Part shown: in pieces, positions 1 through 19,687 of the stretch
How positions within the stretch are numbered: position 1 is the stretch's first letter
Layout of the letters: every line of letters starts with the position of its first letter
NCBI GenBank assembly: GCA_949291125.1
Contig: CASEUJ010000016.1
Span: forward strand, 1-64,000
Origin: an uncultured Ruminococcus sp.
Lineage (GTDB): Bacteria; Bacillota; Clostridia; Oscillospirales; Ruminococcaceae
Reading direction: 5' to 3'
DNA length: 64,000 nt
Made by a program: the position numbers and the translations under genes
The notes under the pieces: generated by a model
Databases searched by the model: none
The model's input: only the letters and a program-made list of their open reading frames with translations
What the model was told of the DNA's origin: nothing

Positions 1-172
1 CTGATAGAGCGAAGAATGTCATTTCGGGAGTGCTGATGGTAACAGCATAAGGCGATGAAAGAGAACGTGATAATGATACTCTCATCATGAAGATGACTCG
101 GAGGAAAACGAGGGCTGGCGCCGTGCGATTGCTAACCACAATCACCTTTTCTTGTCAATGGATGGACACCCC
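1..172. other. Unidentified non-coding sequence at left edge
   Basis: No credible reading frame is present. On the minus strand this sequence directly follows the point where the ABC ATPase fragment loses similarity to its family. Read as minus-strand RNA it can form several short hairpins, for example GATTG/CAATC near 130-146, CTCG/CGAG near 100-115 and ATGAT/ATCAT near 77-92. That would fit the 5' end of an inserted structured element such as a group II intron, but I found no diagnostic domain V or reverse-transcriptase sequence. An ordinary recombination junction is equally possible. Confidence 0.3.
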
Positions 173-349
173 CACATTTGACAAAGAACCGTAATTTTGA
201 TACCCGGCAATGGATTTGAGAAGCGTTGTTTTGCCTGCGCCATTCCTGCCAAGCAAACAATAAATACCCGGTTCATCAATCGACAAAGTAATGTTTTTTA
301 GTATGGTTGCTTGCCCGTACTGCTTTGTTATTTGTATAAGTTTTATCAT
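155..349 (-). pseudogene. ABC transporter ATP-binding protein, N-terminal fragment
   Basis: The first 50 or so codons match an ABC-2-type or drug-export ATPase: beta strands, then a Walker A motif (GRNGAGKTT) and LLKSIAGYQ. The family then needs about 180 more residues with the Q-loop, signature motif and Walker B. Here the frame drifts into unrelated sequence and stops after 64 residues, so the product cannot hydrolyse ATP. The ATG at 347-349 has a strong upstream TAGGAGGA, so the 5' end was once a real gene. It is divergent from the MerR gene, a usual pairing in which MerR controls the exporter. The cause of truncation lies at about 172-180 and may be an insertion whose remainder is outside the window. 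Confidence 0.7.
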
Positions 350-384
350 GCAGTCATTCCTCCTAAACAGCATTGCAATATCTA

Positions 385-413
385 TTGATTTTCGCAATGC
401 CTTATGCTATAAT
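385..413 (+). promoter_or_regulatory. Sigma-A promoter of the MerR gene
   Basis: TTGATT (385-390), 17-bp spacer, TATAAT (408-413) preceded by TGC (extended -10). A 7-bp inverted repeat GCATTGC/GCAATGC (370-376 and 394-400) flanks the -35 element and may be an operator controlling both divergent genes. Confidence 0.7.
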
Positions 414-422
414 TAATTATAA

Positions 423-443
423 ACCTTTGTGTTACACAAAGGT
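423..443. promoter_or_regulatory. Perfect 9-bp inverted repeat, candidate MerR operator
   Basis: ACCTTTGTG and CACAAAGGT are exact inverted repeats separated by TTA. They lie just after the predicted start point and 20 bp before the MerR start codon. No T-run follows, so an operator is more likely than a terminator. Confidence 0.5.
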
Positions 444-462
444 CAAGAGGGAAAATAAAAAA

Positions 463-1254
463 ATGCAGAAATATTTTTCGATTGGAGAGGCTGCGAAAGC
501 TGTCCATACAACGAGTGAAACACTGCGGCATTATGACCGCATTGGATTGGTGAAACCGAGCAAGAAAGACAAGTGGACAAATTATCGCTATTATACCGAG
601 CAGGATATTGTTCGGTTGCAAACCGTACGGGCTTTACAGATTATGGACTTGTCTTTGCAGGAAATCAAAACGGTTTTAGAATATGATGAGCTTGAAAAGA
701 TTGTCGATTTTCTAGCGCAAGCAGAAAAAAGGGCTGATGAAAAAATCGCAACACTCCAGTATAGTAAGTCAAAAATTCAGTTAGCAAAGGCAGACTATGA
801 ACGAAAATTGCAGGGACAGCAAAAGTTCGATGGTACTTTTTTGAAAGCGTATCCAGAGCGTATGATTTTGCTGTCTAACACATTAGAAACGCCAACGCTT
901 GATGCTCTTTGGAATTATCTCAGTCATTTTTACAATCAAGTTGTGCCTGCCAGAAAAGAACAATTTTCCTTTGAGGATTTAGCTGGCATATACACTGAAA
1001 ATGGCGTATCGAGGCTTTTTGCTGTCTGTATTCGTTATGCAGAGATAGATGGGTTAAAGGTGTTGCCAAAGGGAACATATTTATGTGCGAATTGTACCGA
1101 AGAAAACCGGGAACAAGTATTAAACGAGGCCGTGCGTATAGCCCGAACAAAATATGGTGTTGCGCCAACATTTACAGTACAGCTCATCGTTGTATCGGGC
1201 ATTTTGCACTGGAATTATCAAGTGCAAATTCTTTTATCTGCAAATCAAGAATAA
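463..1254 (+). CDS. MerR-family transcriptional regulator with effector domain
   Basis: A 263-residue cytosolic DNA-binding activator. Residues 1-70 are a winged helix of MerR type (FSIGEAAKAVHTTSETLRHY, then IGLVKPS and NYRYYTEQD). A dimerising coiled coil follows (about 85-130). The C-terminal 120 or so residues have the size and position of a GyrI/BmrR-like ligand-binding domain, so it probably senses a small hydrophobic or cationic compound. Start chosen at 463 because the MerR fold begins there and AAGAGG lies upstream; a longer in-frame opening from 373 adds 30 unlikely residues. It probably controlled the divergent exporter, now broken. Effector unknown. Confidence 0.85.
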   Translation: MQKYFSIGEAAKAVHTTSETLRHYDRIGLVKPSKKDKWTNYRYYTEQDIVRLQTVRALQIMDLSLQEIKTVLEYDELEKIVDFLAQAEKRADEKIATLQYSKSKIQLAKADYERKLQGQQKFDGTFLKAYPERMILLSNTLETPTLDALWNYLSHFYNQVVPARKEQFSFEDLAGIYTENGVSRLFAVCIRYAEIDGLKVLPKGTYLCANCTEENREQVLNEAVRIARTKYGVAPTFTVQLIVVSGILHWNYQVQILLSANQE

Positions 1255-1257
1255 AGC

Positions 1258-1282
1258 GGTATAGATTTCTATGCCATTTTTT
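1258..1282 (+). terminator. Rho-independent terminator after MerR gene
   Basis: GGTATAG (1258-1264) pairs with CTATGCC (1269-1275, one G-U pair), followed by a T-run at 1277-1282, immediately downstream of the MerR stop codon. Confidence 0.6.
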
Positions 1283-1403
1283 AGCGCAATGCAAATTTGG
1301 ATCGTTTATACATGACAAGAAAAAGTCCTCTTAATATTTTTAATTTCTTTTTTTCTGCGTAACTAAATGCTGTTGCCCTGTCTGTGCAAATCGCTTGTGT
1401 AGC

Positions 1404-1432
1404 TTGATTTTTGCTTGGTGTTGTGGTATGAT
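1404..1432 (+). promoter_or_regulatory. Sigma-A promoter of the agrA-agrC-like genes
   Basis: TTGATT (1404-1409), 17-bp spacer, TATGAT (1427-1432), 28 bp upstream of the response regulator start. I see no clear copy of the downstream direct repeat here, so this unit may be constitutive. Confidence 0.65.
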
Positions 1433-1460
1433 AGAAGCAGCAAGAAAAGGAGCGAAAAGC

Positions 1461-2192
1461 ATGATTCGAATTGCGATTGTGGATGATGAAAAAGGACAGG
1501 TTGCAGGAGTTACCGCTTGGGTGTCAGAATTTTTTCAGGACAGAAATATGGAATATCAGATTTTGCCTTTTTATTGCGGAGAAGACCTTCTCTCATGCAA
1601 GATTCCGATCGACGTGGCATTTCTTGATGTTCAAATGAAAGGCATCAATGGAATTGAAACAGCCCAGCGATTACGCGCTTGGAATAAATGGGTTGCACTC
1701 ATTTATATCACCTCTTATGGAAACTATCTTCAAAAAGCTATGACAATTCACCCTTTTGCGTATCTAACAAAACCGATCAGAAAAAGGCAAATTTCTCAGA
1801 CTTTGGATGAGTATTTGAGCTATCAGAATAGTATCACAAATGTTATGCCCAAAGAGTATTTTCAATTGCATACAGAAAGTTTCTGTCAATATGTGGAAAT
1901 GGCAGATATTTATTATTTTAGCTATGTGCAGGATCGTACTGTTCGCGTACAAATGCGAAAAGAGTATTATATTATCAAAGACAGCATTACAAATGTATAT
2001 GGCATTGTTAATCATCAATATTTCCTGATGCCAAATCAGAGCTGTATCGTGAACATACAGCACATTCGTGAAATCGATGGAAAAACGAAGGCGCTGATAA
2101 TGGAGAATGAGGATCTGATCTTGATCTCACGAAGAAAATATCGGGAAGTGTTTGATGCCTTGAATCGTTATATGACAGGCGGGGAGTTCTAG
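1461..2192 (+). CDS. AgrA-like LytTR response regulator
   Basis: A 243-residue response regulator of the AgrA/ComE class. The receiver domain (1-125) has the acidic pair D8-D9, phosphoacceptor D56 in FLDVQMKG, and a lysine in LTKPI. A LytTR DNA-binding domain follows (about 140-240), recognisable from the strand pattern and the motif HIREIDGK. Start at 1461 follows GGAG with good spacing; an upstream in-frame ATG (1395) lacks a ribosome site. It stops 2 bp before the histidine kinase, so both are co-translated. Predicted to bind the direct repeats at 3524-3556 and activate agrD-agrB when phosphorylated by the kinase. Family assignment is firm; the link to these repeats is inferred. Confidence 0.92.
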   Translation: MIRIAIVDDEKGQVAGVTAWVSEFFQDRNMEYQILPFYCGEDLLSCKIPIDVAFLDVQMKGINGIETAQRLRAWNKWVALIYITSYGNYLQKAMTIHPFAYLTKPIRKRQISQTLDEYLSYQNSITNVMPKEYFQLHTESFCQYVEMADIYYFSYVQDRTVRVQMRKEYYIIKDSITNVYGIVNHQYFLMPNQSCIVNIQHIREIDGKTKALIMENEDLILISRRKYREVFDALNRYMTGGEF

Positions 2193-2194
2193 AG

Positions 2195-3538
2195 ATGCAG
2201 TATAGTTTGGATTGTGGCACGATGCTATTGAGTGCAGTGCTGTGTTTTTATTTTTTATATGGAAAATATCCGATTCGTTCCGCATATATGGGGATACGCA
2301 TCGCGCTTCTTTTAGCAGCAATTGCAGCAAGAGCAGTGCTTTTGGCGTTGCAGATATCTCCATTGAATTTTATTTCCGGTTGCGGTATGATCTTATTGGT
2401 AATACGACTTCTGTTTTTCTGTAATAAGAAGGCTTTATTTCTATATGCATCGTTGTTCGCAATGCTCACACTTAGTGCAGACGTGTTGGGCGTAATTACA
2501 GTATCTGCATTTCATCAGAATACGATCTCAGTAACATTAGGAGCATCAGAACTTGTCTGGCAGCACCATATATGGAACTGGATTATCTTGATCATACTTA
2601 CTCGTATTGCAAAAGTTTTGATCCTCCAAAAAGAACGGCTTCAGATCCGGTGGCATGAGATCATATTTTATGTGCTTGTTGTGCTTTTTGAGGTTGGAAT
2701 TTTTGCATACATCTCATATGCGATCCAAGCGAGTTCTTCCGGAATCGTGATGCTGTTGATCATGGTTGGATTTTTGCTCCTGGATCTGTATATCATATAT
2801 GTGTTTCATAAGATGTCACAGTTGCGTGAAAAAGAACGTCAGACCGATTTGATGCATCAGCATCAGCAGCTGCAATTGCAGATGTATCGCGAACTGCAAA
2901 ATATGTACCAGAAAACGTGTGAAACAGCGCATGATATCAATCGCCACATCACCTCTTTGAAAACATGGATCGCTGAAACATCAACAAGAGATGCGGAACA
3001 ATATCTTTCCGATCTATCTGCGGCTACAAAACAGCTTCGGCCAAGAATCCAGAATCAGAATAAGATTCTGGAAATCATTCTGAATACAGTTGCGACACGT
3101 TGTGAGAGCGAAAATATTCAGTTTGACATGGAAGTAGAAGACTTTTCAATGCAGTTTCTCTCTGAGATGGATATCACAACAATTTTTTCAAATCTGCTGG
3201 ATAATGCAGTAGATGCCTGTATGGAAGTTGAAAATGGGCCTAAACAAATTAAAATGGTGCTGTGTCAAAATTTAGGACTGGTGGCGTTGCGCATCGCCAA
3301 CACCTGCAATAAGCCGAATCATGTTTTGCCAAGAAGATGGCATTCTACCAAGGAAAATCACATGGGTCTTGGACTTTCGAATGTGGAAAAGGCGGTAGAA
3401 AAATATCACGGTGTGGTGTCATATCAGATGAAGCAGAAACGGTTTCAGGTTTCTGTGACATTGCCTTTGGAGAAAAAAATACCGAAAGATAGCCTGTGTA
3501 GTGCCGGCGCTTCGTGCCAAGATGACCATTTGACGTGA
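2195..3538 (+). CDS. AgrC-like sensor histidine kinase (GHKL type)
   Basis: A 447-residue membrane kinase. Residues 1-205 hold about six hydrophobic helices (peptide sensor), followed by a charged, glutamine-rich coiled coil (about 208-240). The phosphoacceptor region TAHDINRHITSLKTW puts the histidine at about residue 246. The ATPase domain shows the N box (NLLDNAVDA) and G box (MGLGLSNVEKAV) of the HATPase_c_5/GHKL group typical of AgrC. Predicted to bind the cyclic peptide made from AgrD and to phosphorylate the upstream regulator. Its last codons overlap the first of two operator repeats for the next transcription unit. The position before agrD/agrB makes the AgrC role secure. Confidence 0.92.
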   Translation: MQYSLDCGTMLLSAVLCFYFLYGKYPIRSAYMGIRIALLLAAIAARAVLLALQISPLNFISGCGMILLVIRLLFFCNKKALFLYASLFAMLTLSADVLGVITVSAFHQNTISVTLGASELVWQHHIWNWIILIILTRIAKVLILQKERLQIRWHEIIFYVLVVLFEVGIFAYISYAIQASSSGIVMLLIMVGFLLLDLYIIYVFHKMSQLREKERQTDLMHQHQQLQLQMYRELQNMYQKTCETAHDINRHITSLKTWIAETSTRDAEQYLSDLSAATKQLRPRIQNQNKILEIILNTVATRCESENIQFDMEVEDFSMQFLSEMDITTIFSNLLDNAVDACMEVENGPKQIKMVLCQNLGLVALRIANTCNKPNHVLPRRWHSTKENHMGLGLSNVEKAVEKYHGVVSYQMKQKRFQVSVTLPLEKKIPKDSLCSAGASCQDDHLT

Positions 3539-3556
3539 AAAATCGACCGTTTGACG
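3524..3556 (+). promoter_or_regulatory. Tandem LytTR-type operator repeats
   Basis: Two near-identical 12-mers, GACCATTTGACG (3524-3535) and GACCGTTTGACG (3545-3556), start exactly 21 bp apart, i.e. two DNA turns. The second ends 8 bp before the -35 of the agrD promoter. Known AgrA/LytTR regulators bind pairs of 9-bp direct repeats with this period next to the -35. The first copy lies in the last codons of the kinase gene. Confidence 0.75.
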
Positions 3557-3564
3557 CAAATTGC

Positions 3565-3593
3565 TTGATTCTTTCTAAGAAATGTGCTATACT
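3565..3593 (+). promoter_or_regulatory. Promoter of agrD-agrB
   Basis: TTGATT (3565-3570), 17-bp spacer, TATACT (3588-3593) with TGTGC just upstream (extended -10). It lies directly downstream of the LytTR repeats. Confidence 0.75.
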
Positions 3594-3638
3594 GAAAATA
3601 CAAGATATCTTGAAATTATGAGTGGGAGGTTATGAGAA

Positions 3639-3791
3639 GTGCGTGAAAAGAAAAGCTTGAAAAAGAGCTTGCTGACAGGTGCCGCTGCTGCTGTAAAGAA
3701 AACTTCACAGATCAGCGCTGGACAGGCTTGCATGTGGTGGGACTACGAGCCGAAAATGCCGAAGTCAGTAAAGAAGCTGCGTAAGTTCTGA
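3639..3791 (+). CDS. agrD: AgrD-like cyclic autoinducing peptide precursor
   Basis: A 50-residue precursor starting with GTG at 3639; a TGA at 3633-3635 in the same frame rules out an earlier start, and GGGAGG (3624-3629) is correctly spaced. The N-terminus is a basic amphipathic membrane anchor (REKKSLKKSLLTGAAAAVKK). The core is GQACMWWD and the C-terminal recognition tail is YEPKMPKSVKKL, matching the position and Pro/Lys pattern of staphylococcal and clostridial AgrD tails. By alignment with clostridial precursors (Cys-Leu-Trp-Phe-Thr ring) the mature peptide should be a thiolactone ring of Cys31-Met-Trp-Trp-Asp35 with a short N-terminal tail. The stop codon overlaps the agrB start (TGATG), so the two are translationally coupled. 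Confidence 0.9.
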   Translation: MREKKSLKKSLLTGAAAAVKKTSQISAGQACMWWDYEPKMPKSVKKLRKF

Positions 3792-4378
3792 TGTTGGAAC
3801 GATTGTCTGAGAAATTTGCAGAGAAACTGATACATGCTGAAATTATTTCTGAAACAGATGCAGATGTGTATGTGTATGGTTTTTTTCAGTCAGTGATGTT
3901 GCTTCTAAATATAACAACCACGATATTGCTGGGCATTTTGTTCCAGGAGTTTTTCCTTTGTTTGATGTTAAACGCGGCGTATATCCCAATTCGAATTAGC
4001 GCCGGGGGACATCATGCAAATAGCCCTTTTCGCTGCTATGTAAATTCCACTGTGATCATTGCGGCTTTGCTTGCAGTGATCAAGTGGATCCCGATAAATA
4101 CAATAATTGTTCTTGTTTTGCTTGGATTTTCGAGTGTTGTCATCTGGACGCTGGCGCCTGTAGATACAAAGAATCATCCATTTAATGAAATAGAACAAAA
4201 GATATATAGAAAACGTGCAAAAATTGTATGGATCGTCGAGGCAGCAGTATGCATAGTGCTCCTTGTTTTTGTTAAAGAGCAGTATGCTGCGGCGATCGTG
4301 TTGGGACTTTTTACAGAGGCAGCCATGCTGTTGATTGGGGCGAGAAAAAACCATCATACCGAAGATTACAATAATTAA
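3791..4378 (+). CDS. agrB: AgrB-like autoinducer-processing membrane protease
   Basis: A 195-residue integral membrane cysteine endopeptidase that cuts and cyclises the AgrD peptide. The family signature RISAGGHHANSPFRC is present, with candidate catalytic His74/His75 and Cys82. About four to six hydrophobic helices surround it (36-63, 85-103, 105-122, 148-185). Length is typical of AgrB. The ATG shares its A with the agrD stop codon. In the family, AgrB removes the C-terminal tail (here from about Tyr36 onward) and forms the thiolactone; another peptidase trims the N-terminal leader. Transcribed with agrD and ended by the hairpin at 4391-4434. Confidence 0.95.
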   Translation: MLERLSEKFAEKLIHAEIISETDADVYVYGFFQSVMLLLNITTTILLGILFQEFFLCLMLNAAYIPIRISAGGHHANSPFRCYVNSTVIIAALLAVIKWIPINTIIVLVLLGFSSVVIWTLAPVDTKNHPFNEIEQKIYRKRAKIVWIVEAAVCIVLLVFVKEQYAAAIVLGLFTEAAMLLIGARKNHHTEDYNN

Positions 4379-4390
4379 GAATTTTATGTA

Positions 4391-4434
4391 AAATGCAAGA
4401 CCTGATGTCCATAAGGAGATCAGGTCTTGCATTT
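4391..4434. terminator. Bidirectional terminator between agrB and ptsI
   Basis: A perfect 16-bp stem (4391-4406 with 4419-4434) around a 12-nt loop, T-rich on the plus side (ATTTTCTTAG) and also on the minus side. It separates two convergent genes. Confidence 0.9.
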
Positions 4435-4458
4435 TCTTAGTGTATCATTTTGTATGGG

Positions 4459-6096
4459 TTAATCTTTGGACAGATCCGTATTACGTACAGCATCTCTTAC
4501 TTTCAGTACTGCAGATGGCGTTACAGAAAGCTCATCAATCCCCATTTTCAGAAAGGTTTTTGTCAGCGAAATATCTGCTGCAAGTTCGCCGCAGATACCG
4601 ATCCATGCACCATGGGCGTGGGCGTTCTTTGCGGAAAATTCGATCAGGCGTAAAATTGCTTCGTGGTGTGTATCACAAAATGCTTCCACAAGGGCATTTT
4701 GGCGGTCGCATGCCAGCGTGTACTGAGTCAGATCGTTGGTGCCAACGCTAAAGAAGTTCACCAGCGGTGCAAGTCTGTCACTGATGATTGCCGCAGCAGG
4801 TGTTTCGATCATGATGCCGATCTCAGTATTCGCGTTGTAGGGGATATCATTTGCCTTTAGATCTGCTTTGACTTCGTTACAGATGGCGAGGATCTGTTCG
4901 AGTTCTGAAACGCTTGTAATCATCGGGAACATAATGCCGAGCGTTCCATATGCCGAAGCACGGTAGAGTGCCTTGAGCTGTGTACGGAAAACATCCGGAC
5001 GTGTTAAGCAGATGCGGATTGCGCGCAGCCCCAGCGCCGGATTCTCTTCTTTTTCCAGGTGAAAATAGTCTGCCTGCTTATCCGCACCGATATCGAGGGT
5101 GCGAATGATAACCTTCTTGCCCGCCATGCTTTCTAGTACACGCTTGTACGCTTCAAATTGCTGCTGCTCAGTGGGGTAGTCATTGTTCTCGAGGTAGAGA
5201 AATTCGCTGCGGAACAATCCAATGCCTCCGGCATCATTTGCCAGAACTGTTCCGATGTCGCTGACTTTGCCGATGTTGGCATAGATGTTGATTTTTGTGC
5301 CATCGATTGTGATATTCTCCTTCCCCTTTAGCTCTTGCAGGAGGTGACGCTTTTCTTCATCCTGACGTTGCTTCTCAAGGAGTCTTGTTCTTGTTTCTGC
5401 ATCTGGATTCACGAAGACTTCACCAGTAAAGCCATCCACGATCGCCTCATCTCCATTGTGAATCTGTTGCAGGAAGGATTCGCCCATGCCGATCACAGCC
5501 GGAATATTCATGCTTCTGGCGAGGATTGCCGTGTGGGAGTTGGATGAGCCGTAAGCTGTGACAAATGCTAACACCTTGTCCTTATCGAGCGATACTGTTT
5601 CGCTGGGCGCCAGATCTTTAGCACAGATAATGACCTTTTCATCCGAATCGGTACCGTCTGAAATAGTGCCGGTGAGATTTGCAATAATGCGGTTTGAAAT
5701 GTCTTTGACATCTGCGGCCCTCGCCTGCATATAGGCGTCATCCATGGAGGCAAACATTTCAGCAAAATTATCTGCCGTCACAGCAACGGCATATTCCGCG
5801 TTGATCTGCTGAGTATCAATGATGCTTTCGATCGATTCGTTATAGTCGTCATCCTCGATCATCATCATGTGGATTTCAAAGATCTGTGCGTGCGTTTCGC
5901 CGACTTCTTTCAGCGCCTTTTCATAGATCGCCTGCAATTGTTGTATTGCGGCCTCTTTTGCCGCGCCGACGCGTGCTTTTTCCCCGTCTGTATCATCCAC
6001 ATGATAGCGCTTGACACTGACGTCCTGTTTTTGAATGATTGAAATTTTTCCGATCGCAATTGCGTTGCAGACGCCTTTCCCCTGAAATACCGTCAT
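4459..6096 (-). CDS. ptsI: PTS enzyme I (phosphoenolpyruvate-protein phosphotransferase)
   Basis: A 545-residue cytosolic enzyme that moves the phosphate of PEP to HPr. The N-terminal HPr-binding and phosphohistidine domains contain the active-site motif GSSNSHTAILAR with His188. The C-terminal PEP-binding barrel shows GGIGLFRSEFLY, the Arg motif IRTLDIGADKQ, EIGIMIETPAA, FFSVGTNDLTQY and GICGELA with its catalytic Cys. Length is slightly short of the usual 570. The ATG overlaps the stop of the pyrophosphatase gene by 4 bp, so ppa-ptsI form one unit. It will serve the sucrose EII encoded upstream together with HPr. Confidence 0.97.
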   Translation of the reverse strand: MTVFQGKGVCNAIAIGKISIIQKQDVSVKRYHVDDTDGEKARVGAAKEAAIQQLQAIYEKALKEVGETHAQIFEIHMMMIEDDDYNESIESIIDTQQINAEYAVAVTADNFAEMFASMDDAYMQARAADVKDISNRIIANLTGTISDGTDSDEKVIICAKDLAPSETVSLDKDKVLAFVTAYGSSNSHTAILARSMNIPAVIGMGESFLQQIHNGDEAIVDGFTGEVFVNPDAETRTRLLEKQRQDEEKRHLLQELKGKENITIDGTKINIYANIGKVSDIGTVLANDAGGIGLFRSEFLYLENNDYPTEQQQFEAYKRVLESMAGKKVIIRTLDIGADKQADYFHLEKEENPALGLRAIRICLTRPDVFRTQLKALYRASAYGTLGIMFPMITSVSELEQILAICNEVKADLKANDIPYNANTEIGIMIETPAAAIISDRLAPLVNFFSVGTNDLTQYTLACDRQNALVEAFCDTHHEAILRLIEFSAKNAHAHGAWIGICGELAADISLTKTFLKMGIDELSVTPSAVLKVRDAVRNTDLSKD

Positions 6097-6653
6097 ACTT
6101 TCATCTCCTTTTCCTGATTGTTTCCGGTACCAAAGTGCTTCTGATAGCGTGCGATCGCCCGTTCAATGACGTTGACAGCATCGATCGGCCCGCCGATCTC
6201 CCGGACTTCTGTTTTCTTGTTTTCGAGCTGTTTATAAACGCTAAAGAAATGTTTTAATTCATCAAAAATATGCTTCGGCAGCTCATTGACATCTGTATAA
6301 CTCATAAAGGTCGGATCGCTGTAGGGGATCGCAATGATCTTTTCATCTCCCATTCCGTTGTCCTCCATGTGCATGACGCCGATCGGATAGCTGCGAACCA
6401 GCGTCATTGGTTGGATTGGCTGGGAACAGAGCAGGAGCACATCCAGTGGATCGTTGTCGTCGCCATATGTCCGCGGGATAAAGCCGTAGTTCATCGGATA
6501 ATATGTCGCTGTGAATAAAATTCTGTCCAGCGACAACATGCCAGTGCGCTTATCGAGTTCATATTTCATATTGCTGCCTTTTGCTATTTCAATCACTGCA
6601 ACAAAATCAGTCGGATAGATCCGATCTTCGTCAATATCATGCCAGATGTTCAT
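6093..6653 (-). CDS. ppa: Inorganic pyrophosphatase (family I)
   Basis: A 186-residue soluble Mg-dependent pyrophosphatase. It has the family I fold and the metal site DDNDPLDVLLL (three Asp), with YPMNYGFIPRT before it and the later KHFFSVYK region. The start ATG at 6651-6653 follows AAAGGAGA. The gene overlaps ptsI by ATGA, an unusual pairing that suggests shared expression of pyrophosphate removal and PTS phosphate flow. No odd features in the protein. Confidence 0.95.
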   Translation of the reverse strand: MNIWHDIDEDRIYPTDFVAVIEIAKGSNMKYELDKRTGMLSLDRILFTATYYPMNYGFIPRTYGDDNDPLDVLLLCSQPIQPMTLVRSYPIGVMHMEDNGMGDEKIIAIPYSDPTFMSYTDVNELPKHIFDELKHFFSVYKQLENKKTEVREIGGPIDAVNVIERAIARYQKHFGTGNNQEKEMKV

Positions 6654-6715
6654 GGATTTGTTCTCCTTTCACCAGACAGAAAATACTACGTCCGAATCGA
6701 ACATAAAAATATGAT

Positions 6716-6771
6716 AAAAAACGTTTCGGCATTGCCGACAGATTCCGGCAACTAAGCACGAAACGTTTTTT
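6716..6771 (-). terminator. Terminator of the sucrose/HPr operon
   Basis: A 13-bp stem (6716-6728 with 6759-6771) enclosing a second small stem TTGCCG/CGGCAA. On the minus strand it ends in TTTTTT, just after ptsH. T-rich on both sides, so it may work both ways. Confidence 0.85.
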
Positions 6772-6794
6772 CGTTTTTGAATAGAATCCAAAAA

Positions 6795-7052
6795 TTAAAG
6801 ATTCTCTTCCAGGAATTTTTGAATGCTGGTGCAGGCGGTTTCTTCATCTTCGCCTTCGATAGATACATTGATTGTATCACCGCACTTTACGCCAAGACCC
6901 ATGAGCATCATAAGCTTTGTTGCATTGACAGATTTTCCATCTTTTTCAATGGTGACCGTGCTGGAAAACTCTTTTGCCAGCTTTGCAAGCTGACCTGCTG
7001 GTCTTGCGTGAATGCCGACTTCATCTTTAATGGTATAGCTGAATGTTTTCAT
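6795..7052 (-). CDS. ptsH: PTS phosphocarrier protein HPr (lysine at position 46)
   Basis: An 85-residue HPr. The phosphoacceptor motif GIHARPAGQ places His15 exactly where expected, so phosphate transfer from enzyme I to EII should work. Aligned without gaps to Bacillus HPr, the regulatory Ser46 (NLKSIMG) is replaced here by Lys46 (NATKLMMLMG). Ser46 is the target of HPr kinase and the basis of CcpA-mediated catabolite repression in Firmicutes, so this HPr cannot be regulated that way. Its ribosome site (AAGGAG) is inside the fructokinase 3' end and the gap is 3 bp, so it is the last gene of the sucrose operon. Confidence 0.95.
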   Translation of the reverse strand: MKTFSYTIKDEVGIHARPAGQLAKLAKEFSSTVTIEKDGKSVNATKLMMLMGLGVKCGDTINVSIEGEDEETACTSIQKFLEENL

Positions 7053-7055
7053 GTG

Positions 7056-8051
7056 TCAAAACTCCTTTTCGATGGGTTTCGGGGGGGATTGAATCTGTAG
7101 TTCCCCTTGCGTGGGATAAGAGGGAATTGCACCGTAATGCTGGACACTGTAGGCACAGAATGCGTTGGAAAAATCCAGACATTCCTTGAGCGTGGATTCA
7201 TGCATCGAATCAAGCGTTTTTGCTGTCACGCCGTATGCGTACAGCTTCCATAAAAACGAGCCGATAAATCCGTCTCCTGCCCCAGTAGTATCCTTGACAC
7301 TGACGCTGTCTGCCGGACTGAATACAGAGTTGCTCTTGGTAAATGCATATGCGCCGCCGCTACCACAGGTATACAGAACAAGCTTGACATTGTGCGTAAA
7401 CAGATTTGGCAGTGCGCTTTCAATGTTCTTTTTGTCGGTGAGGAAGAACAGTTCTTCGTCAGAGATTTTCAGGATATCAGAGAGCGGGATGAAGTCCCAG
7501 ACAGTCTTTTTCAGGCTACCCGGATCATCCCAGAGCTGAAAGCGCAGATTCGGGTCAAAGCTGACAAGTTTTTGCTTTTGTCGTGCGATCTCGATTGCCT
7601 TCCGATGGGCTTCTTTCATTGGGAAGTTCCCCAGCGAAACGCTGCAGAAATGAAGTGCAAACATATCGTCGAACCAATTATCCTCGATCTGTTCCGCAGA
7701 AAACAGCATATCTGCCGATGGATTGCGGTAGAACGAGAAGGTACGGTTGCCGTCTTTCGCCAAGCTGACAAAGGCGAGCGCAGTGTTTGCGCGATCGGTA
7801 GTGCTGATGCACGAGGTATCAATGCCGTATTCATCTAGTTCCCGTAGGATCTTTACACCAAAGGGATCTGTACCCAATTGCGTGATCAGCCGGGATGTTC
7901 CACCGAGTCTTGAAAATGCACCGCAGACATTTGCCGGTGCGCCACCAAGTTTCGGAGAAAAGCCCGTTACCTCATAAAATTCACATCCCGTTTTGTTGGG
8001 GATAAAATCGATCAGCGCTTCACCGATCGCCACAAGCCTGTTATTCGCCAA
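7056..8051 (-). CDS. scrK: Fructokinase (PfkB family)
   Basis: A 331-residue cytosolic sugar kinase that phosphorylates the fructose released from sucrose-6-phosphate. It shows the PfkB N-terminal signature (GEALIDFIP, KLGGAPANVCGAFSRLGG) and the C-terminal catalytic motif DTTGAGDGFIGSFLW with its Asp base. The start overlaps the end of scrB by 11 bp. Its place between the hydrolase and HPr in the sucrose operon makes fructose the likely substrate; other PfkB substrates such as ketodeoxygluconate are less likely. Confidence 0.92.
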   Translation of the reverse strand: MANNRLVAIGEALIDFIPNKTGCEFYEVTGFSPKLGGAPANVCGAFSRLGGTSRLITQLGTDPFGVKILRELDEYGIDTSCISTTDRANTALAFVSLAKDGNRTFSFYRNPSADMLFSAEQIEDNWFDDMFALHFCSVSLGNFPMKEAHRKAIEIARQKQKLVSFDPNLRFQLWDDPGSLKKTVWDFIPLSDILKISDEELFFLTDKKNIESALPNLFTHNVKLVLYTCGSGGAYAFTKSNSVFSPADSVSVKDTTGAGDGFIGSFLWKLYAYGVTAKTLDSMHESTLKECLDFSNAFCAYSVQHYGAIPSYPTQGELQIQSPPKPIEKEF

Positions 8052-18466: not shown

Positions 18467-19687
18467 ATGACAGTATTCGAAGAACTGAAACGACGCGGCT
18501 TGATCGCACAGATGACCGATGAGGCAGAGATCGCGGAACTGATCAATGCCGGGAAAGCAACATTTTACATCGGCTTTGACCCCACGGCGGACAGTTTGCA
18601 CGTCGGACATTTTATGGCGCTGTGTTTGATGAAACGGCTTCAGATGGCGGGGAACAAGCCGATTGTTCTGATCGGCGGTGGCACCGCAATGATCGGCGAT
18701 CCTTCCGGCAGAACCGATATGCGTAAGATGATGACAGTTGAAACGATCCAGCACAATGTGGATTGCTTCAAAAAGCAGATGAGTCGCTTTATTGATTTTG
18801 CAGAAGACAAGGCGATCGTGGTCAACAATGCCGACTGGCTGCTCGATTTGAACTACATGGAAGTGTTGCGCGATGTTGGCGCATGCTTCAGCGTCAATCG
18901 CATGCTGTCCCATGAGTGCTATAAACAGCGCATGGAACGCGGACTGACGTTTTTAGAGTTTAATTACATGATCATGCAGAGCTATGACTTCTATCAGCTG
19001 TTCCAGAAGTATGGCTGTAACATGCAGTTCGGCGGCGATGACCAGTGGGCAAATATGCTTGGCGGCACGGAACTCATCCGCCGCAAACTCGGTAAGGATG
19101 CTTATGCCATGACGATCACCCTCTTGCTCAATTCTGAGGGCAAGAAGATGGGCAAGACCGAAAAGGGTGCAGTGTGGCTCGATGCGGAAAAGACGTCGCC
19201 GTATGAATTCTACCAGTACTGGCGCAATGTGTCGGATGATGATGTCATCAAGTGCTTAAAGCTTTTGACGTTTGTACCGATTGAACAGATCGAAGAGATG
19301 GAACGTACATTGAAAGGTCAGGGACTCAATCAGGCAAAGGAATTGCTCGCCTATGAGCTGACGGCGCTGGTTCATGGTAGGGAAGCTGCGGAAAAGGCAC
19401 AGGAAGCGGCAAAGGCGGTGTTTGGCGGCGGCGGAAGTTCGGAGAATATGCCGACGACAACGCTCAAGCCGGAAGAACTCACTGATGGCGGCATCGGACT
19501 TTTATCGCTGATGGTTCGTGCGGGCCTTGCGGCATCCAACGGTGAAGCACGTCGGCTCGTACAACAGGGCGGCGTTTCGGTTAATGATGAGAAGATTACC
19601 GATCCGAAACATGTCGTATATCCTCAAGGCGAGATGATTCTGCGCAAGGGGAAAAAGGTGTTCCATAAAATTCTGATAGAAGCGTAA
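18467..19687 (+). CDS. tyrS: Tyrosyl-tRNA synthetase
   Basis: A 406-residue class I synthetase. The Rossmann catalytic domain starts with FYIGFDPTADSLHVGHF (HIGH-like HVGH) and has the KMSKS-like loop KKMGKTEKGAVWL, with GDDQWANM typical of TyrRS. A C-terminal S4 RNA-binding domain (about 340-406) recognises the long variable arm of tRNA-Tyr. Controlled by the T-box leader upstream and followed by its own terminator. The start follows GAGGTAG. Motif pattern matches TyrS of clostridial type (the TyrZ/TyrS distinction is not resolved here). Confidence 0.96.
   Translation: MTVFEELKRRGLIAQMTDEAEIAELINAGKATFYIGFDPTADSLHVGHFMALCLMKRLQMAGNKPIVLIGGGTAMIGDPSGRTDMRKMMTVETIQHNVDCFKKQMSRFIDFAEDKAIVVNNADWLLDLNYMEVLRDVGACFSVNRMLSHECYKQRMERGLTFLEFNYMIMQSYDFYQLFQKYGCNMQFGGDDQWANMLGGTELIRRKLGKDAYAMTITLLLNSEGKKMGKTEKGAVWLDAEKTSPYEFYQYWRNVSDDDVIKCLKLLTFVPIEQIEEMERTLKGQGLNQAKELLAYELTALVHGREAAEKAQEAAKAVFGGGGSSENMPTTTLKPEELTDGGIGLLSLMVRAGLAASNGEARRLVQQGGVSVNDEKITDPKHVVYPQGEMILRKGKKVFHKILIEA

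Follow-up and report, generated by a model that had tools for sequence, protein, structure and literature searches.

In Staphylococcus aureus, whose agr locus has the order agrBDCA, AgrA acts on its promoters, P2 and P3, by way of two direct repeats that it binds upstream of them (PMC4227749). The agr2 locus of Clostridioides difficile, agrACDB, also combines a full sensing module with agrDB, though in the reverse order to S. aureus, and is taken to be a single transcript (PMC3754575). Five-residue, tailless rings are described for the AgrD peptide of Clostridium thermocellum, where the ring was confirmed by LC-MS/MS (liquid chromatography-tandem mass spectrometry; PMC5322536), and for the Listeria autoinducing peptide (AIP) CFMFV (PMC4916163). 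The locus described here, agrA-agrC-agrD-agrB, lies at positions 1461-4378 of the window -- the whole stretch of 64,000 nucleotides that was analysed, from contig 16 (CASEUJ010000016.1) of an uncultured Ruminococcus sp. genome, called G000 below, of 2.2 Mb and 87% completeness. Very probably this is a complete quorum-sensing circuit of the agr type whose signal genes are under transcriptional feedback, and its AgrD probably gives rise to a five-residue ring, Cys-Met-Trp-Trp-Asp, made as a cell-to-cell signal.

The locus encodes the same four protein types as that of S. aureus, including an AgrB with the shared Arg, His and Cys; the gene order is reversed, and in place of the P2/P3 region there is a candidate operator between agrC and agrD. 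The likeness to C. difficile agr2 is drawn from gene order and content, and a single transcript there stands against a predicted separate promoter and operator for agrDB here (PMC3754575). With the C. thermocellum AgrD the predicted signal shares a tailless ring of five residues, a Tyr after the ring and a conserved Pro in the same register, but the C. thermocellum ring is a lactone through Ser, its other residues differ, and its agrD is described as belonging to no apparent agr operon (PMC5322536). The Listeria ring likewise agrees in length and in having no tail, with other residues (PMC4916163), and where the predicted ring here closes with Asp, the AgrD described in PMC10196373 has Met32. 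LytTR autoregulated operons (LRS) share the operator layout and positive feedback, the latter a prediction in the present case; their regulators are described as paired with a membrane protein, with no histidine kinase or pheromone, whereas the partner in the window is a GHKL kinase (PMC6193735). In the fsr system of Enterococcus, fsrD lies inside fsrB in another frame (PMC3673130), in contrast to the agrD of the window, which is a separate upstream gene overlapping agrB by one nucleotide. No Rfam family, RNAIII included, reaches threshold in positions 1-8000 of the window, and a functional counterpart of RNAIII was not sought further.

The four genes and their products

The four-gene circuit of the original prediction -- LytTR regulator, GHKL kinase, agrD and agrB -- proved exact to the base, and all four genes, which lie on the plus strand, were found by profile search. 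The first, agrA (1461-2192), encodes a LytTR response regulator of 243 amino acids (aa), with its phospho-acceptor assigned to Asp56 by motif (FLDV). It scores 50.2 bits against Response_reg (PF00072) and 58.2 bits against LytTR (PF04397), both above cut-off; against the NCBIfam AgrA equivalog it reaches 26.9 bits, far under the cut-off of 400, so that it is called AgrA-like by its domains and linkage and not as a member of that equivalog. The product of agrC (2195-3538) is a GHKL sensor kinase of 447 aa (HATPase_c_5, PF14501, 74.2 bits) in which H, N and G boxes are present, the H-box His being His246 by motif. Its N-terminal half is hydrophobic, by which residues 1-205 are probably the membrane sensor half.

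The pheromone precursor gene, agrD (3639-3791), has 50 codons. The GTG start and the translational coupling read from the sequence at the outset are borne out: GGGAGG precedes the GTG, and TGATG joins agrD to agrB with an overlap of one nucleotide. The product has no Pfam match but scores 44.7 bits against TIGR04223, NCBI's own AgrD model (cut-off 19). Small precursors of this kind had been said usually to be missed by annotation; with such a score, current annotation need not miss this one. The membrane peptidase predicted to process AgrD is encoded by agrB (3791-4378; 195 aa) and scores 141.9 bits with PF04647, whose cut-off is 23. Its Arg68, His75 and Cys82 are kept in 62, 62 and 61, respectively, of 62 AgrB; in the S. 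aureus protein the corresponding residues, at a constant offset of 2, are Arg70, His77 and Cys84 (PMC10196373). Structure prediction for AgrB gave a seven-helix model with a mean pLDDT of 73.6, in which the stretch leading up to and surrounding the catalytic His, residues 70-76, falls below 50; the model was left out of fold searches. Among PDB chains, no match to AgrB was found at E values up to 1.

Among named relatives, the nearest to be found was Ruminococcus callidus ATCC 27760 (NZ_KI260355.1, L031), which has the same gene order, the same CMWWD ring and the same type of operator and, in addition, two operator-type promoters before a gene for a protein with leucine-rich repeats (LRRs) and a dockerin. 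Its AgrA and AgrB are 80% and 65% identical to those of the window, and its AgrC 70% over the sensor half and 71% over the kinase half. The two agrD genes differ in 16 of 49 codons (13 synonymous, 3 non-synonymous), and over the last 20 codons, which hold the ring and tail, there are six synonymous differences and no non-synonymous one; agrD is under purifying selection. A comparison of the AgrD precursors beside agrB in relatives had been suggested as a check. In a scan of GTDB contigs the order AgrA, AgrC, AgrB is kept in all five loci (L031, L032, L033, L034, L035), and agrD is found between C and B in each of them, four times by filter and once, in L032 (ring CSEWN), by eye.

The contrast originally drawn between this A-C-D-B order and the staphylococcal B-D-C-A is correct as to the order, but as a novelty it fails: the arrangement is published for C. 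difficile (PMC3754575), and D precedes B beside 24 of the 62 AgrB in the tree (the scripts disagree over one unit, L123, whose agrB frame overruns agrD). A single origin for D-before-B is not supported as it stands: four changes are needed on the AgrB tree, the bootstrap of which is unsettled, and a single change may still fit.

Three features were absent from the original prediction: an operator-type direct repeat (3525-3554) and a promoter-like pair (3565-3593), both discussed below, and an inverted repeat at 4390-4435 (strand not assigned), with 21-nucleotide arms and a 4-nucleotide loop, which is a probable terminator between agrB and a convergent gene that by eye is ptsI-like. Upstream of agrA lie a MerR-type regulator, recognised by profile match at 463-1254, and, on the minus strand at 155-397, a short fragment that by eye resembles an ABC-transporter ATPase.

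The predicted ring and its class

In the window AgrD, the codons of the predicted ring, Cys31-Met-Trp-Trp-Asp35 (3729-3743, plus strand), are followed by YEPKMPKSV with its PxxP motif, PKMP. Cys31 thus stands five residues before YEP, and the leader is basic, its amphipathy being judged by eye. The AgrD set from the loci fetched comprises 103 matches with 79 distinct tails, 73 of which (39 with Cys, 34 with Ser) fit a ring pattern that by construction requires a Cys or Ser at just five residues ahead of the conserved [aromatic]-[QE]-P cleavage region. By eye, the six others are three with the same spacing and an Ala after the ring, two (L090 and L093) with Cys six residues before, and L121 with Thr. 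The register in the window, Tyr directly after the ring and Pro five on, is the same as described for C. thermocellum AgrD (PMC5322536). Spacing and register thus agree on the originally proposed five-residue ring as the best reading, its size remaining a prediction; the CMWWD thiolactone has a calculated [M+H]+ of 722.2425, and the linear peptide one of 740.25.

It is unlikely that the same circuit makes some other mature ring, either CMWWDY, cut one residue later (calculated [M+H]+ 885.31), or one that keeps an N-terminal tail. Rings of six residues are possible, which weighs against a ring of five: one is reported for Clostridium acetobutylicum (PMC4916163), and in L090 and L093, 2 of the 79 precursors, the Cys is one residue earlier, six before the anchor (by eye). 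Within the clade of WW rings described below, moreover, the residues before the ring Cys vary (QAC, NFC, LYC, TLC), so that the N-terminal cut is not fixed by the sequence. Set against this, the window AgrD is one of 73 precursors that fit the five-residue spacing, and its register is that of C. thermocellum, where mass spectrometry established the ring (PMC5322536).

Two adjacent Trp with a closing Asp had been expected to make a distinctive pheromone. The closing Asp occurs in 5 of the 73 anchored precursors, every one CxWWD; CMWWD is shared with R. callidus, and adjacent Trp had to be rejected as a mark of the group: CPWWG and CYWWF, with WW at ring positions 3-4, fall outside the clade and close with residues other than Asp, Asn, His or Gln. 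One of these four polar residues closes the ring in 9 of the 73. Eight belong to a C-x-[WY]-W group with YEP or YQP tails (the window, R. callidus, L033, L034, L035, and genomes G199, G004 on contig 192, and G006), and one, CYVWQ, stands elsewhere. The Fisher p of 7e-10 for the association between a polar closing residue and this group merely describes the pattern, the rows being kin by descent and the group having been drawn after they were viewed. CSEWN (L032) and CAWWD (G003 contig 174) also fit the group and lie outside the 73. Seven AgrB of the group, with rings of the form C-x-[WY]-W-[D/H/N], make up one clade with support of 100/100 in a tree whose bootstrap is not fully settled; L032 is missing from this tree because its agrD escaped the profile. 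At the DNA level, a pattern for C-x-W-W-[DHNY]-Y-[EQ]-P-K was found in 3 of 396 family genomes (that of the window, R. callidus and G199). A phage-borne CxWW AgrD was considered and rejected, five IMG/VR matches being one short frame in related phage contigs, with a tail unlike that of AgrD and beside a terminase-like gene (by eye), a chance resemblance.

Several further observations concern the wider family. With Ser at ring position 1 in 34 of the 73 anchored AgrD, lactone pheromones are predicted for these; in the AgrB tree, 26 Ser-type AgrD have B before D and 3 have D before B. Between L034 and L035, 12 agrD codons are changed, 11 of them synonymously, and the sole non-synonymous change, Ser to Gly, falls at ring position 2, a possible pherotype switch; the AgrC of these loci are 74% identical over the sensor and 91% over the kinase. 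Compared with the pair of the window and R. callidus, which have the same ring (70% and 71%, as above), and with the different-ring pair L032/L035 (59% and 56%), this is only suggestive of an AgrC sensor that diverges faster upon ring change. Relic loci are seen in G003, where a CAWWD agrD with a strong operator (L153, C174:3.4-3.7 kb) has only a remnant of agrB, and on contig 68 of G006 (L085, L135), where a CMWWQ agrD is unlinked and the agrB match is split between frames; by eye, each has a repeat of its own. The genomes can be rich in agr-type genes, with nine AgrD in G199, six AgrD in G070 and seven AgrB matches in G001.

The putative operator before agrDB and candidate targets

The candidate AgrA operator (3525-3554, plus strand) is a direct repeat with a period of 21 nucleotides, the first copy of which overlaps the end of agrC. 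The candidate agrDB promoter (3565-3593, plus strand), with a TG preceding its -10, begins 10 bp past the operator, and the full layout of the region between agrC and agrD is ACCATTTGA-12 bp-ACCGTTTGA-10 bp-TTGATT-17 bp-TATACT. The same layout is reported for LytTR-regulated operons, where the 9-bp direct repeats are mostly separated by 11-13 bp and the -35 follows about 10 bp downstream (PMC6193735). When the window was shuffled 100 times with its dinucleotides preserved, the double pattern of the operator was never matched. In number, promoter matches in this region are at chance level (10 found, 10.0 expected), and the position of the agrDB promoter candidate relative to the operator is conserved in relatives.

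The operator is kept in most of the relatives looked at. A comparable repeat, altered in its letters and about equally far from the -10, was found in 8 of 8 loci, with 10-13 of 13 identities and a period of 20 or 21; these loci were hand-picked for a readable promoter, and in L034 a period of 16 ties. Across the family, 60 distinct agrB units had at least 200 nucleotides to examine, and with the threshold set at 11 of 13 identities, 31 of the 60 reach it at period 20 or 21, before agrDB or agrBD. The corresponding controls gave a mean of 0.82 units and a maximum of 3 in 100 composition-shuffle runs, and at most 2 units at the other periods from 12 to 32. An operator of LytTR type in this position suggests that AgrA activates agrDB.

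When repeats from the same genome were compared (n = 20 pairs), 19 pairs shared at most 8 of 13 letters, from which it appears that, where a repeat can be detected, most paralogous circuits own a private operator; one pair (G199, L104/L106) shares 11. G000 itself has a second agr system (L039, C7:10.6-13.5 kb), with the order A-C-B-D and a Ser-type ring, SICSC. Its operator, CTAACATGGGGGATT twice at 21 nucleotides, is unrelated to that of agrDB and has one occurrence in the genome with at most 3 mismatches. The system adjoins genes for surface proteins that by eye look VWA-like, and a dockerin is matched at C7:6287-6451.

The wiring also bears on the function of the peptide, which might serve mainly in growth inhibition, or in interference with the agr of competitors, instead of in self-sensing. 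Growth inhibition is reported for the AgrD ring of C. thermocellum, which is described as having no linked agr operon (PMC5322536), and the many different rings in the family, with up to nine AgrD in one genome, make cross-inhibition plausible. In the window, however, agrA and agrC are linked and co-conserved and are followed by an operator of LytTR type on agrDB, which is the wiring of self-sensing, and a mainly inhibitory role is very improbable.

Further sites were sought with two profiles, R1 from five agrDB promoters and the broader R2, built partly from six G199 sites; 150 candidates were scored per genome. In R. callidus, R1 picks out two further sites on contig 71, one at 18940-19009 (E 4.8e-12) and the other at 18592-18647 (E 1.2e-5). 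Both precede a gene whose 704-aa product begins in a signal-like manner and carries BspA-type LRRs together with a type I dockerin. In G199, which belongs to another genus and has nine AgrD, R1 finds six sites beyond the WW-type agrDB, all at E 6.7e-8 or better, and R2 three more under 1e-6, on contigs 153, 94 and 135. At three of the nine sites the first sizeable downstream gene encodes a dockerin: on contig 126 a protein with LRR, dockerin and transglutaminase-like regions, on contig 63 one with a dockerin and a transglutaminase-like match slightly below cut-off, and on contig 94 a 91-aa dockerin followed by a trypsin-like protease. With 82 dockerin matches in G199, the chance of at least 3 of 9 is about 0.003, a rough value computed post hoc and assuming about 2500 genes. 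Of the remaining sites, that on contig 82 (L157) precedes a small secreted-looking DUF2712 protein and directly follows another AgrA/AgrC-like pair with no agrBD beside it, so that this pair may be the real regulator; that on contig 124 precedes feoA-feoB-like genes (by eye); for those on contigs 80, 44 and 135 the genes that follow have no evident identity; and that on contig 153 is a partial match with an LRR/dockerin neighbour on the opposite strand. Since G199 has several other AgrA, each site is tied to the WW-type AgrA by likeness of the repeat only. As candidate AgrA sites in two relatives precede LRR/dockerin genes, the outputs of the circuit probably include secreted surface proteins.

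Operator-type sites were also seen downstream of an amidoligase/gamma-glutamyl-cyclotransferase-like module in G004 (L060, C71:19-21 kb), with integrase- and recombinase-like genes nearby, and in G199 (L156, C44), and in G001 (L162, C15) after a gene that by eye resembles the 92-aa gene of that module. The whole G000 genome contains 68 matches to type I dockerin domains, by which the host has a large cellulosome-type repertoire.

The proposed circuit and its meaning

The four genes, their conservation, the selection on agrD and the operator with its conservation are established by the sequence; the course of events proposed from them, through cleavage and ring closure, release, ligand action and AgrA binding to the outputs, would be as follows. 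AgrB would cut AgrD after Asp35 and close the Cys31-Asp35 thiolactone, and with removal of the leader the tailless CMWWD ring would be released; presumably, a cut between AGQA and Cys would suit a signal peptidase and leave just such a ring. At high density the ring would bind AgrC, which would phosphorylate AgrA, and AgrA would then bind the ACCATTTGA/ACCGTTTGA repeat and activate the agrDB promoter, raising signal output. A separate promoter would serve agrAC. As the operator lies between agrC and agrD, agrAC is outside the amplified unit, and by this layout the feedback would amplify the signal but leave the receptor unchanged.

Beside the six-residue rings already discussed, several points count against this account. 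For agrA itself, the promoter candidate (1404-1432) does not rise above chance, and the same-order locus of C. difficile, taken as a single transcript, is a caution for a separate agrDB feedback (PMC3754575). In the family test 29 of the 60 units stay under 11 of 13 identities, and G003 has a complete A-C-D-B operon (L032, ring CSEWN) with no repeat, scoring 8/13 at periods 20 and 21. Finally, the window genome has no second strong site among the 150 of 1228 candidates scored in its 87% complete sequence, the next best reaching 25.7 bits as against 56.4, and the dockerin link of the window circuit is accordingly one carried over from its relatives.

The 25.7-bit site lies on contig 7 of G000, between an agrAC-like pair with no agrBD (L061, 18.6-22.1 kb) and a lipoprotein gene; in G003 a 61% identical lipoprotein is preceded by a partial R2 match (E 1.4e-4). 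Such AgrA/AgrC-like pairs with no adjoining agrBD (L061, L157) may serve as receptors for a different peptide or one of foreign origin. Of other candidate targets in G000, the single one from a pattern search, C15:18513, was rejected as a site with 3 mismatches inside an aldo-keto-reductase-like gene; C20:13045 and C32:28194 are weak, and R1 and R2 are strong only at agrDB. That the window circuit is decaying or idle, as might be read from the single strong AgrA site in G000 and from the decay in related genomes (the second agrD of G003, CAWWD, with its agrB remnant, and the unlinked CMWWQ agrD and split agrB of G006), is hardly credible in view of four open frames, purifying selection on agrD and an intact operator and promoter.

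The kind of system is known; what looks new, within the searches made, is the ring class with its polar closer, the candidate regulon of dockerin genes and the operator conserved before agrDB. CMWWD was not found in the full text of the open-licence literature, and no study of a Ruminococcus AgrD was found in the literature searched by title and the beginnings of abstracts; a review cites agrA/agrB for 199 rumen genomes and describes the evidence for rumen AIPs as limited (PMC10838665). A broader proposal, tentative and somewhat doubtful as it stands, is that CxWWD, with its H, N and Q variants, represents an undescribed pheromone class of gut Ruminococcus and a neighbouring genus, in which cell density would set the production of secreted dockerin/LRR surface proteins via one operator, the several agr channels of a genome being kept separate by ring and by AgrA-private operator.

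In the gut, ruminococci are major degraders of fibre and starch, and to our knowledge little is known of any density control of their surface enzyme and adhesion systems. If the proposal is true, a signal and a cellulosome-type surface machinery would be tied together by one recognisable operator. The defined pentapeptide, the operator and a short list of candidate targets make density control of surface systems testable in cultured R. callidus. The rule of a 20-21-nucleotide repeat, as seen in 31 of 60 units, would likewise offer a route by sequence to the regulons of uncharacterised agr paralogues in gut Bacillota.

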